From assembly GCF_003590145.2 (NCBI RefSeq), contig NZ_CP060437.1, positions 124,001-188,000 on the forward strand: 64,000 bases of DNA. Reading direction: 5' to 3'. A model generated the notes under the pieces. The model ran no database searches and was not told the DNA's origin. It saw only the letters and a list, made by a program, of their open reading frames with translations. Positions within the stretch are counted from its first letter, which is position 1. Each line of letters begins with the position of its first letter. Made by a program: the position numbers and the translations under genes. Positions 35,859 to 48,798 of this stretch are shown here, piece by piece. This DNA comes from Pseudooceanicola algae. GTDB lineage: Bacteria; Pseudomonadota; Alphaproteobacteria; Rhodobacterales; Rhodobacteraceae.

Positions 35859-36248
35859 TCAATAATTTGCGGGGGGATCGCTGGCGGGGAAGGATTGGTC
35901 GACTTCCTCGTCGGTTTCCGTCCAGCGTTTCGGAGGGTTCTCCATTTCCTTGGGACCGGCGGGTCGGATGTAGTCGGACTTCTTGTCGTCGCGCGGCTCG
36001 GACTCCTCCAGCGCCTCGGGCTGCTGCTTGACCGAAGCCTCCTGGCCCGGTTCATCGGCCCCGTGCGCCTGATCGGCATTCGTCAGGTCCAACGGATCAC
36101 CGGGTTGCTTCATGCTGCCCTGCGCATTGGCATTCACGTCGACCCGGTGCCGGCTGGCAGGGTCGATCTGCCGGGCCGTCTGGTTGATCGTCCGGCCTTC
36201 GTGGCGCTGGACTTCGGTCGGTATGATGGTCTTGGGATCGTCAGCCAT
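35859..36248 (-). CDS. Small acidic hydrophilic protein, putative general-stress protein
   Basis: A 129-residue protein with no hydrophobic segment, rich in Asp, Glu, Pro, Gln and Lys and probably disordered. The C-terminus (TDEEVDQSFPASDPPANY) carries the FPASDPP motif seen at the end of many small uncharacterised proteobacterial proteins. Function unknown. The ATG at 36246–36248 has AAAGG upstream; the longer frame to 36428 is arginine-rich and would cover its own promoter. An EcfG-type promoter lies 32 bases ahead of the start, so induction by general stress is the main clue. Confidence 0.75.
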   Translation of the reverse strand: MADDPKTIIPTEVQRHEGRTINQTARQIDPASRHRVDVNANAQGSMKQPGDPLDLTNADQAHGADEPGQEASVKQQPEALEESEPRDDKKSDYIRPAGPKEMENPPKRWTETDEEVDQSFPASDPPANY

Positions 36249-36279
36249 GTTCAAGCCTTTCATCTGATCATGAGCCCTC

Positions 36280-36304
36280 AACGAAACCAGCCGGTAAATG
36301 TTCC
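36280..36304 (-). promoter_or_regulatory. EcfG-type promoter for the small acidic protein
   Basis: On the minus strand GGAAC (36300–36304), 16-base spacer, CGTT (36280–36283). This equals the alphaproteobacterial general-stress sigma consensus. The –10 element lies 31 bases before the start codon. Confidence 0.8.
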
Positions 36305-36452
36305 GGCGTGTGCAAGCGGCTGACCGCCCATGCCGCTCGGCCCGGTGGCGCGGTACAGGCCTGCCGCGGGCCTGTGCACGGGGGCATTCGGGGCGGGATT
36401 CAGGGGGCCGATGACCGGCGCAGATCATTCGGAACCCAAATGCGTCCGACAG

Positions 36453-36478
36453 GGAACGATGCGGCCTGCCTGCCCGTT
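36453..36478 (+). promoter_or_regulatory. EcfG-type promoter for the Crp/Fnr-family gene
   Basis: GGAAC at 36453–36457, 17-base spacer, CGTT at 36475–36478. The start codon of the regulator is 96 bases downstream. Confidence 0.7.
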
Positions 36479-36574
36479 GTGTTGAAACATCGCAGTAGTT
36501 CGATGTAAGCGCACTAATATATGTTAAGTGTTTCGCCGCGGAGGGCCGCAGGACCAGGGGATCAGGGCTTCAGA

Positions 36575-45045: not shown

Positions 45046-47244
45046 TCAGCCAGGTATCCCCTCCATCGCGGCAAGGACCCTGTCGGGCGTTGCCGGAAAG
45101 TCTCGCATTCGCGCCCCGCAGGCGTGGTGGATCGCGTTCAGGATCGCCCCGCCCGCGCCGCAAATGCCCAGTTCCCCGATGCCCTTGGCCTGCATGGGAC
45201 CGGCCCAGGGATCGCGTTCTTCCACGAAGTGGACCTCGAGCGGTGGCACATCGGCGTTTACCGGCAGGTGATATTCGGCAAAGTCGCGGTTCACGATGTG
45301 CCCATCACGCCGGTCATGGGTCATCGCCTCGGTCAGTGCCATGCCGATGCCCCAGGTCTGGCCGCCGTGACACTGCGAACGGGCCGTGCGCGGGTTCAGC
45401 ACCCGACCGCAGGCGAAACTGCCCAACATCCGGCGCATCCGCACCTCACCGGTCACGTCGTTGACCGCGACCTCGGCGAAATGAGCGCCAAAGGTCGCCT
45501 GGCGGACCTTTTCGGCGGCCTCGCCGGGCTGGACATGGCCGTGCCCACTCAGGTCTTCGCCGCCGAGGACTTCGCTCAGGGGGTGTCGTTGATTGTTGTG
45601 GATTGCCATGCCGTCCTTCAGGGTCAGCGCGGCCTCGTCACAGTTGAGGCGTGCCGCGATTTGCCGGCGCAGGTCCATCCCGGCCATCCAGACGGCCGTC
45701 CCGGTCGACGCGGCCCCGAAGGAGCCGCCAGAGCCGGAACCGGGCGGCAGATCCGTATCGCCCAGCCGGACCGTCACCTGGTCCAGCGGCAGGCCCAGCA
45801 GTTCACCCGCGATCTGGGAAAAGATCGCGTAGCTGCCGGTGCCGATATCGGTCATGTCGCTTTCCACCACGGCGCGGTTGCCCTCAAGGCGGATGCGGGC
45901 CTCGGCCTCGATCACCATGTTGACGCGGAAGGCGGCAGCCATGCCGGTGCCGATCCACCATTCGCCCTCGCGCCGCTGGCGGCGGGCAGCGGGGCGGTCG
46001 GCCCAGCCGAAGCGCTCCGCGCCTTCTGTCAACGCGCTTTCGAGGCGATGGGACGAAAATGGCACCCCACTTTCCGGGTCCTTGTCGGGGATGTTGCGCA
46101 GGCGCAGGTCGACAGGGTCGATGCCGGCCTTGCAGGCCAGCTCGTCCATGGCGACCTCGAAGGCGGTGACGCCGACCGCTTCGCCCGGTGCCCGGACCGA
46201 CCCCGCAGCCGGGCGGTTGATCCGCGCGATGCGCAGGCCAAGGCAGCGATTGGCTGCGGCATAGGCGAAATGGCTCGCCTGAACGACAGGTTCGGCAAAG
46301 ACTTCGCCGGTGATGTTGGACACCAGCGCCTCATGTCCCAGCCCCGTCAGGCGGCCGTCGCTGTCGGCGGCAAGGCGGATGTGCTGGCGGGTCTCGGAGC
46401 GGCGGGTGTTGACCTCGAAGACATGGCGGCGGTGCTGGACCACGCGGACCGGCTGGCCAAGCTCCATCGCGGCAAGGGCGGCAGACACGCAATCCGCCGA
46501 GATCCCCAGCTTGGACCCGAAGCCGCCGCCGACGAAGGGGGCAAGGATGCGGACGTTTTCTGGGTTCAGTCCGACGCTGTCCGCCAGTTCGTTGCGGTTG
46601 AACTTCAGCATCTGCAAGCTGCCCCGCAGGGTCAGGGTGGTGCCGTCCCAATCGGCCGTCGCGGCATGGGGCTCCATCGCGCCGGAGGTCATCGACGAGG
46701 TCGTGTAGGTTTCGTCCACCGTGATGGCGGCATCGCGCATCGCCGCGTCCAGATCGCCCTGGGCGCTTTGCTTGTCATCGGGGTCTTCCGGGGACACGTC
46801 CTGCGGGTTTACCGGCACTTCTTTGGGCTGGATCTCGACCGTCAGGGATTGCGCGGCATGGCGGGCCTGTTCGAAGGTATCGGCCACGACCAGGGCAATC
46901 GGCTGGCCGACGTATTCGGCCTTATCGACACCCTGGATCGGGGCCTCGTTCGCGGCACCCTGTGCCGCGTTGCGGATCATGCGGGCGTCGCGCAGCACCG
47001 TACGGACTCCTGCCATTTTGCGGATTGTGTCGATATCGGGACAGGCGACCGCGCCGATGGCGGGCGCGCGCACCAGAAAGCCGTGCAACAGGCCATCTGG
47101 GCGGGCTTCGGCAGCGTAAAGCGCGCGGCCCGTGGCCTTGTCCAGCCCGTCGGGCCGGGCGTTGTCCTGACCCAGCACGTTCTGCGCCAGATCATCGGCG
47201 CGGTTTTCATGGTCGGCGTTGTCGATCTTCAGGTCCAGGGTCAT
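45046..47244 (-). CDS. paoC: Aldehyde oxidoreductase molybdenum subunit (PaoC-like)
   Basis: A 732-residue xanthine-dehydrogenase-family large subunit, the same length as E. coli PaoC. The a/b hammerhead domain covers about 35–140 and the molybdopterin-binding part the rest, with GGGFGSKLG near 240, the glycine-rich [12 protein letters not shown] near 505 and the [18 protein letters not shown] end segment holding the probable base glutamate. With the FAD and iron-sulfur subunits it forms a periplasmic or cytoplasmic aldehyde-oxidising complex; no Tat signal is visible in the iron-sulfur subunit here, which argues for the cytoplasm. It overlaps the FAD-subunit gene by four bases. Confidence 0.87.
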
Positions 47245-48215
47245 TGCGTCGCCTCCTTCAGGACTGCGCTCAGCACACGCCGGGCCAGCGGCAGCTTGAA
47301 TTCCGTGCCTTCGCGGGGTGCGGCGTTGCGCAACAGATGCTTGCCGGCCTCCGCGAACAGGGCGTCCGACGGGGTCTCGCCAACAAGCAGGGCGTCGACC
47401 GCGGGGTCGCGCCAGGGGCGGGCGCCAAGCCCGCCGAAGGCCAGTGCCGCCTGGCTGAAACGCCCCTTGTCAAGCGTGACGACTGCGGCCACCGACACCA
47501 GCGCAAAGGCGTAGGACGCGCGGTCACGTACCTTGCGATAGACCTGCACTGCGCCCTGCGGGGGGGGCGGCAGAAGGACCGCCGTGATCAGGTCGCCCGC
47601 GCCGAGCGTTGTTTCCAGATGCGGTGTCACGCCGGGCAGGCGATAGAAATCATCCAATGGCACATGGCGGATGGCACCATCCGGGCCTTCGACTTCGACC
47701 AGGGCATCCAGTGCGCGCATGGCAACGGCCATGTCCGACGGGTGCAGGGCCACGCAATGATCCGAGGTGCCCAGCACAGCGTGATTGCGCATCTCGCCGC
47801 CCAGGGCGGCGCAGCCGGAGCCCGGTGCGCGCTTGTTACAGGCTGCATCCGTGTCGTAGAAATAAGGGCAGCGCGTGCGTTGCAACAGGTTTCCACCCGT
47901 AGTGGCCTTGTTGCGTAACTGGCCCGAAGCCCCGGCCAGAAGGGCGCGGGACAAAACAGGGTAATCCCGGCGCAGACGCGGATCGGCGGCAAGGTCGGAA
48001 TTCGTGACCATGGCACCGATGCGCAACCCGCCATCCTGAACTTCGATCCCATCGAGCCCGAGGCGGGACACGTCGACAAGCCGGTCAGGCGCCATGACCT
48101 CCAGCTTCATCAGGTCGACAAGGTTGGTGCCCCCGGCGATGAACATCGCACCTTCGCGTGCGGCTGCATGGGCGGCGTCCCGGTCGGAGGGGCGCTGATA
48201 ATCGAAAGGTTTCAT
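47241..48215 (-). CDS. paoB: Aldehyde oxidoreductase FAD subunit (PaoB-like)
   Basis: A 324-residue FAD-binding medium subunit. [19 protein letters not shown] (about 26–44) is the FAD pyrophosphate loop. It has the extra cysteine cluster that marks Pao[32 protein letters not shown] spacing (about 115–140), which in E. coli carries a 4Fe-4S centre, followed by [11 protein letters not shown]. Start and stop both overlap the neighbours by four bases, so all three subunits are coupled. Confidence 0.88.
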
Positions 48216-48745
48216 TCCGCGGCCTCCTGCTGATCAATTGGTTGCCTGGTCTCGTCGGCGATCTCGCGGATCGCGGCGTTGATGCCCGGATAGCAGGAAC
48301 ACCGGCAAAGATTGCCGCTCATCCGTTCGGACAGCTCGGCATGGCTCAGGGTCACAGGGCCTTCCAGATCATCGCTGACGTGGCTGGGCCAGCCGGCGGA
48401 GACCTCTTCCAGCATCCCCGTGGCCGAACAGACCTGACCCGGTGTGCAGTAGCCACATTGCATGCCGTCATGGGCGACAAAGGCCTTCTGCAGGGCAGAG
48501 GCGCCACCTTCGGCAAGCCCTTCGACGGTGGTGATGCTGTCGCCGTCGTGCATCACGGCAAGACTGAGGCAGGCGTTGATCCGGCGGCCATCCACCAGCA
48601 CCGTGCAAGCGCCGCATTGGCCGTGATCACAGCCCTTCTTGCTGCCGGTCAGCCCGATCTGATCGCGCAGGGCATCGAGCAGGGTGACCCGCGGGTCGAT
48701 GTCCAGTTCATGGTTCCGTCCGTTGACGGTTAGCGTGGTCTGCAT
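48212..48745 (-). CDS. paoA: Aldehyde oxidoreductase 2Fe-2S subunit (PaoA-like)
   Basis: A 177-residue iron-sulfur subunit with two 2Fe-2S centres. First: Cys39, Cys44, Cys47 and Cys59 (plant-ferredoxin type, CDHGQCGAC). Second: Cys97, Cys100, Cys147 and Cys149 (CGYC, CRC), with Cys151 next to it. E. coli PaoA is about 50 residues longer and has a twin-arginine signal; this protein starts directly at the ferredoxin domain ([10 protein letters not shown]), so periplasmic export is not expected unless by hitchhiking. First gene of the operon, 28 bases after the –10 element of an EcfG-type promoter. Confidence 0.88.
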
Positions 48746-48773
48746 GAGGGAGCTCCTTGAACGTCACAAACTC

Positions 48774-48798
48774 AACGAGGAGCGCCTGAACATGTTCC
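48774..48798 (-). promoter_or_regulatory. EcfG-type promoter for the paoABC–exoD operon
   Basis: On the minus strand GGAAC (48794–48798), 16-base spacer, CGTT (48774–48777), 28 bases before the paoA start. Confidence 0.8.

Follow-up and report, generated by a model that had tools for sequence, protein, structure and literature searches.

The stretch of Pseudooceanicola algae DNA analysed here, called the window in the following, comprises 64,000 bases (C2:124001-188000) of the 202,410-base contig C2, which is one of the four contigs (C1–C4) of a genome of 4,094,723 bases. Between positions 35,859 and 48,798 the window contains a cluster of genes encoding a catalase, a YdeP-like oxidoreductase, a PaoABC-like enzyme together with an ExoD-family protein, a Crp/Fnr-family regulator paired with an HWE histidine kinase, and several small proteins, with six sites of the form GGAAC-N16/17-CGTT lying among them. 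Judged from its sequence, this stretch is with high probability a block of the EcfG general stress regulon located on the 202-kb replicon and driven in trans by the sigma factor EcfG encoded on the chromosome, and the cluster would very probably turn on as one unit. An earlier note on this DNA had proposed one regulon gathered in 13 kb; at the sequence level this idea is upheld by the encoded core regulatory locus, by the directed sites, and by the conservation of the sites before ydeP, paoA and crp, the exception being the site before katE.

An exact-pattern scan of the window recovered all six sites that the earlier note had listed, i.e. 36280..36304 (–, spacer of 16 bases), 36453..36478 (+, 17), 38501..38525 (+, 16), 41575..41600 (+, 17), 44324..44348 (–, 16) and 48774..48798 (–, 16), and a seventh match at 63741-63765 (+), which lies antisense within a gene. 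The genes were called by a purpose-built codon-usage gene caller trained on the genes of the window, and a site is regarded as directed if it is intergenic and points at a gene start within 400 bases. By this definition all six sites lie between called genes and are directed at the next gene, as had been claimed; five of them are predicted EcfG-type promoters—of the gene for a 129-residue protein, of the crp-HWE pair, of ydeP, of the gene for a 106-residue protein and of paoABC-exoD, respectively—and the third is the EcfG-type site upstream of katE. The distances from the end of CGTT to the called start are, in the order of the sites, 16, 96, 215, 34, 33 and 28 bases. The statement that four sites end 28–34 bases before a start codon thus holds with the later in-frame ATG of the first gene (31 bases), but not with its called start (16 bases).

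Concerning the frequency of the motif, about one match had been expected by chance in 64 kb, which agrees both with the average of 1.03 in dinucleotide shuffles of the window and with the genome background of 0.95 per 64 kb; the maximum in 100 shuffles was five matches, and none reached seven. From the 61 exact matches in the genome, 0.19 would be expected per 12.94 kb, where six were found, and six sites within 12.94 kb were not reached in any of 20,000 random placements with 33 sites nor in any of 20,000 with 61 sites, each scored by its maximum over all places. In the window plus 28 kb of flanking C2 sequence, and counting only genes with an upstream space of at least 45 bases, a site is present for six of the seven cluster genes and for none of the 36 others; the resulting p value (1e-6) is flattered because the cluster was delimited by means of these very sites.

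The 61 genome matches, compared with 127 for the reversed motif, consist of 33 intergenic and directed sites, 22 sites inside genes and six that are intergenic and undirected. Among the reversed-motif controls—the first 30 of the 127 by position, all on C1—none was directed, 21 being coding, two partly coding and seven intergenic; the intergenic share amounts to 7–13% of five measured stretches. In 22 of the 33 directed sites the CGTT is separated from the start by 15–60 bases. The contig C2 holds seven of the 33, namely the six of the cluster and one before the gene of cytochrome oxidase subunit II, and further directed sites were seen upstream of the genes of CsbD, hemerythrin, DUF883, PLDc_N and pyridoxamine-oxidase-like proteins. 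The site of the oxidase gene (C2:68940; L053 1541-1736) is situated 170 bases upstream, a spacing also kept in the relatives G013 and G206. Elsewhere in the genome, three directed sites are grouped in 5.4 kb of the chromosome (C1:1293932-1299275), and a divergent pair on the 111-kb contig C3 (C3:59883-60061; L055 7884-8062) precedes a small phasin-like gene and an SDR-like gene, both named by eye.

The core regulators are encoded on another contig. A NepR, above the cut-off of PF18557 and the sole match in the genome, was found at C1:1,760,964; PhyR is encoded beside it (NF006623, 365 bits vs a cut-off of 240), and the same locus (C1:1,760 kb) also encodes a HisKA_2 kinase and a sigma factor containing the domains of regions 2 and 4. 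The genome thus has the linked PhyR, NepR and EcfG genes by which an EcfG general stress regulon is recognized. Two overlapping divergent sites of the same motif occupy the space between phyR and nepR-ecfG, lying 33 and 51 bases away from the starts of the called genes. Besides EcfG, six sequences of the genome match it at E ≤ 1e-5, the next-best being located on C1 with 36% identity over 150 residues; on C2 there is neither an EcfG match nor a NepR match, all seven EcfG-matching sequences of the genome lying elsewhere.

The conservation of the sites was followed in relatives. For ydeP, 330 bases upstream were scanned in 80 loci (the best 80 of 292), 15 of which exhibit the exact motif, with a spacer of 16 in 14 loci and of 17 in two, one locus having both; the other spacers of 8–26 gave none on the forward strand except for 24 (three loci), and 0–2 per spacer on the reverse strand. 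When up to one mismatch was allowed, 47 of the 80 loci had a site at 16/17 vs 5, 10, 9 and 11 at 12/13, 20/21, 8/9 and 24/25, respectively. The 15 loci with an exact site are presumably all alphaproteobacterial, and none was present in the eight loci of Dyella, Rhodanobacter, Pseudoxanthomonas and Polaromonas. The gene paoA was matched in 49 of 292 genomes, own included, and the comparison covered the 29 best-scoring loci of relatives, with the start doubtful in two of them (L216 and L220): an exact site at 16/17 was seen in 10 of 29 (0–2 at other spacers), and with up to one mismatch in 25, vs 12, 4, 7 and 2 at 12/13, 20/21, 8/9 and 24/25. The crp gene has a match at 1e-60 in six of the 292 genomes, own included, and GGAAC-N16/17-NGTT ends 92–113 bases upstream in five of them (four of the five relatives), the exact CGTT being confined among these five to the own genome and G206. 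Before the gene of the 106-residue protein, an exact or one-mismatch site was found 27–36 bases upstream in four of the five relatives' copies seen.

With regard to the gene products, the cluster starts on the minus strand with the small hydrophilic protein of 129–134 residues (35859..36263). It continues on the plus strand with the Crp/Fnr-family regulator containing cNMP-binding and HTH_Crp_2 domains (36575..37315), the PAS_3-HWE histidine kinase (37442..38380), the KatE-type long catalase (38741..40843), a 218-residue protein of unassigned family behind katE (40866..41522), and the FdhF/YdeP-family molybdopterin oxidoreductase (41635..43953). The 106-residue small protein with a C-terminal hydrophobic stretch, seen by eye (43970..44290), is encoded on the minus strand, as is the presumed operon paoABC-exoD, consisting of the PaoA-like iron-sulfur subunit (48212..48745), the PaoB-like flavin adenine dinucleotide (FAD) subunit of the xanthine dehydrogenase family (47241..48215), the PaoC-like molybdenum subunit (45046..47244) and, as its last gene, the ExoD-family protein (44428..45045; PF06055). 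Searches with Pfam and NCBIfam bore out the catalase, the YdeP-like enzyme, PaoABC–ExoD and the Crp/Fnr regulator named in the earlier note, which had overlooked the kinase behind crp. The 129-, 106- and 218-residue proteins matched no Pfam family at 0.001. The oxidoreductase belongs to the FdhF/YdeP family (TIGR01701, 872.5 bits vs a cut-off of 582) without reaching the narrower YdeP equivalog (700 of 1473 bits), and the equivalog cut-offs of PaoA and PaoC were likewise not reached (256 of 322 and 726 of 1180 bits). Escherichia coli PaoA is exported. In the PaoA-like subunit the model alignment begins at position 51 of the PaoA model, so that the N-terminal region of the periplasmic type was not found in it, and the PaoABC-like enzyme is therefore probably cytoplasmic and not exported.

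The HWE_HK domain of the kinase scores 61.6 bits vs a cut-off of 22.8 (PF07536), and the protein remains under the cut-offs of the named equivalogs (PhyK, 33.3 of 750 bits; blue-light kinase, 109.6 of 450 bits). Its sequence contains, as identified by eye, HRVKN, HEWMTNSAKYGAL, WRE and GFGSRL, which we take to be the intact H-, N-, HWE- and G-boxes. The kinase is probably transcribed from the crp promoter and could feed back on PhyR. Comparison of crp leaders also drew attention to the imperfect palindrome CTAATATATGTTAA (36514..36527), situated 35 bases past the -10 element, as a candidate operator of the Crp/Fnr protein. A palindrome resembling TTAAC-N4-GTTAA, with 0–2 mismatches, is present in all six crp leaders examined, own included, beginning 56–73 bases before the start codon and, in the five leaders having an EcfG-type site, 35–40 bases past the -10 element; the leader of the relative G023 possesses the palindrome and lacks the EcfG site. 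It should be added that a wider Crp regulon is not claimed here, because the exact TTAAC-N4-GTTAA occurs at 13 places in six genomes vs 11 with the motif reversed, and a single one of the 13 (in G023) is at crp.

The whole cluster was present in none of the relatives' stretches examined. Two relatives (G016 and G008) have paoABC-exoD, a gene for 125 residues followed by one for 690–707 residues, and the gene of the 106-residue protein, with exact sites preceding paoA, the 125-residue gene and the 106-residue gene. In G013 the oxidase subunit II gene, paoABC-exoD, crp-HWE and katE with the 218-residue gene share a stretch of ~37 kb (L187, L188), the 218-residue gene being found behind katE in the own genome, G013 and G007. 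A further relative, G010, combines an EcfG-like sigma gene, crp, two genes resembling those of trehalose synthesis (by their first residues), paoABC and the 106-residue gene; its sigma gene (L229 9029-9529), 42% identical to EcfG, adjoins crp and has an exact site 128 bases upstream. With the own genome counted, ydeP and a katE match at 1e-100 were each found in seven of 22 genomes of the genus, and the HWE kinase in five of 147 relatives.

The mode of action suggested by these features would be as follows. Under stress, kinases would phosphorylate the chromosomal PhyR, which would free EcfG from NepR, and RNA polymerase containing EcfG would then initiate at the six predicted promoters, serving the 129-residue gene, crp-HWE, katE (with the 218-residue gene), ydeP, the 106-residue gene and paoABC-exoD. 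The products would be expected to clear peroxide, to remove aldehydes or other oxidisable compounds, and to modify the envelope. The Crp/Fnr protein would probably restrain its own transcript via the palindrome just past the promoter, and the HWE kinase would probably supply an extra signal input to PhyR.

Among the known systems, that of Rubellimicrobium thermophilum presumably originates from the same order, Rhodobacterales. Its general stress response (GSR) loci share the consensus GGAAC-N16-17-C/GGTT and the HWE/HisKA2 input kinases (PMC12148442); in contrast to its two GSR loci with duplicated regulators, one NepR was found here, and the plasmid contig carries targets and a kinase without an EcfG or NepR match. 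The EcfG (ECF15, extracytoplasmic function) regulon of Sphingomonas melonis Fr1 exhibits a similar motif and the same core type PhyR-NepR-EcfG (PMC6599016). Described there among the top EcfG-dependent genes are a cAMP-binding regulator that has a GGAAC site, subunits of the CoxS/M/L type and catalase. The targets overlap with those of the present cluster in the Crp-like regulator, the CoxS/M/L-type operon, the catalase and small unnamed proteins, and the motifs are, as here, over-represented at up to 100 bases from the start (PMC6599016). Unlike in S. melonis, the six sites are packed into 13 kb of a non-chromosomal replicon, and ‘exod’ is absent from the main text of PMC6599016. That plasmids can carry pathway inputs or sigma factors is known from the GSR-activating kinase PakD of S. 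melonis Fr1 (PMC6599016) and from EcfG2 of Rhizobium etli (PMC8103513), both plasmid-borne; the plasmid described here differs from these in carrying a target block plus a kinase. In Rhodobacter sphaeroides, a Crp-Fnr gene is located downstream of phyR (PMC5830050). The literature searches, judged by their listings, turned up no report of such a plasmid stress cluster and no paper pairing ‘Pseudooceanicola’ with ‘general stress response’, and therefore this response seems to have received little study in marine Rhodobacterales. The pathway, the motif and most target types are already known, the compact packaging on a second replicon being what is of interest.

Several observations speak against the assignment to an EcfG regulon and have to be weighed. 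The motif is short, 22 of its 61 matches lie within genes, the reversed motif is commoner, the gene caller is home-made, and with one mismatch the paoA spacing of 12/13 still reaches 12 of the 29 loci. In R. sphaeroides, also a member of Rhodobacterales, PhyR is reported to have a narrow role (PMC5830050). The matches within genes and the commoner reversed motif would suit a short motif clustered by chance, an explanation that we consider practically negligible: the random placements never attained six sites, and the spacer-specific conservation before ydeP and paoA already largely contradicts it. The sites could also be real ECF promoters whose main user is another member of the ECF family, be it the paralogue of 36% identity on C1, which could share these promoters, or yet another. 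The six further EcfG-matching sequences and the sigma gene within the G010 cluster are in favour of this; the same motif, however, precedes phyR and nepR-ecfG and corresponds to the published EcfG consensus (PMC12148442, with a similar one in PMC6599016), so this alternative appears improbable. A limited form of the EcfG assignment, rather unlikely but clearly closer, is that only part of the sites work, e.g. those of paoA, ydeP, crp and the 106-residue gene as promoters, the katE site being there by chance. The katE site is indeed the least supported of the six, because it has no exact counterpart in five close relatives (L179-L183, 69–76% identity), where just a one-mismatch site 127 bases upstream was seen, in G005; moreover, it lies 215 bases from its own gene, and among three distant catalase loci one (L184) has an exact site. 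On the other hand, the motif is matched exactly at this intergenic and directed site, the expectation for the stretch is 0.19 matches, and catalase is EcfG-dependent in S. melonis (PMC6599016).

The part assigned to the kinase is the one most evenly contested. That the HWE kinase works in a separate circuit, possibly together with the Crp protein, and leaves PhyR unaffected falls only somewhat short of an even chance. The kinase is without an EcfG-type site of its own, its target could be another response regulator, crp-HWE pairs and paoABC reside on separate contigs in G007 and G206, and such a pair is also present in G023, where paoA is unmatched. Against this, HWE/HisKA2 kinases are the usual inputs of PhyR (PMC12148442, PMC6599016), the pair is kept behind an EcfG-type site in four of the five relatives, and the immediate neighbours of the kinase are crp and katE, with no response regulator. 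As for the candidate operator, the palindrome of the own genome carries two mismatches, was matched by 41 of 2000 leader shuffles and, taken alone, is not convincing. A block of the EcfG regulon driven from the chromosome nevertheless remains the reading that we prefer.

Concerning the replicon, C2 and C3 each have one ParA-type match above the cut-off and C4 has three, C1 also being matched, and C2, C3 and C4 are taken as plasmids on this ground. A replication of the RepABC type was considered and not adopted, the RepC family PF03428 being unmatched in the genome in a weak test, whose control matched only Deinobacterium and below the cut-off. The base composition of the cluster does not deviate (G+C fraction 0.617-0.673 at 36–50 kb vs 0.617-0.668 elsewhere in the window), and the word island, used in the earlier note, denotes a cluster only, with no sense of mobility intended. 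Paired copies of TTAACAGCTGTTAA, 46–58 bases apart, were observed in four relatives (L243/L247, L244/L248, L245/L249 and L241/L246), possibly as repeats of plasmid replication or partition. We tentatively suggest, while holding it to be doubtful, that the cluster is a portable module, in which plasmid-borne effectors, joined by their own sensor kinase and by a Crp/Fnr regulator that limits itself, plug into the chromosomal PhyR-EcfG pathway of the host and might re-tune its stress response on transfer; under the same reservation, the gene types may be seen as re-assorting in relatives with probable trehalose genes, cytochrome oxidase and an EcfG-like sigma gene.

The cluster supplies six predicted EcfG promoters that can be tested and marks two unnamed families of small proteins as likely EcfG targets. 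The possible feedback of the kinase and the putative self-limiting loop of the Crp protein are the parts most worth testing. For the organism, losing one replicon would take away, and gaining it would bring in, a block of stress-regulon genes together with one possible sensor.

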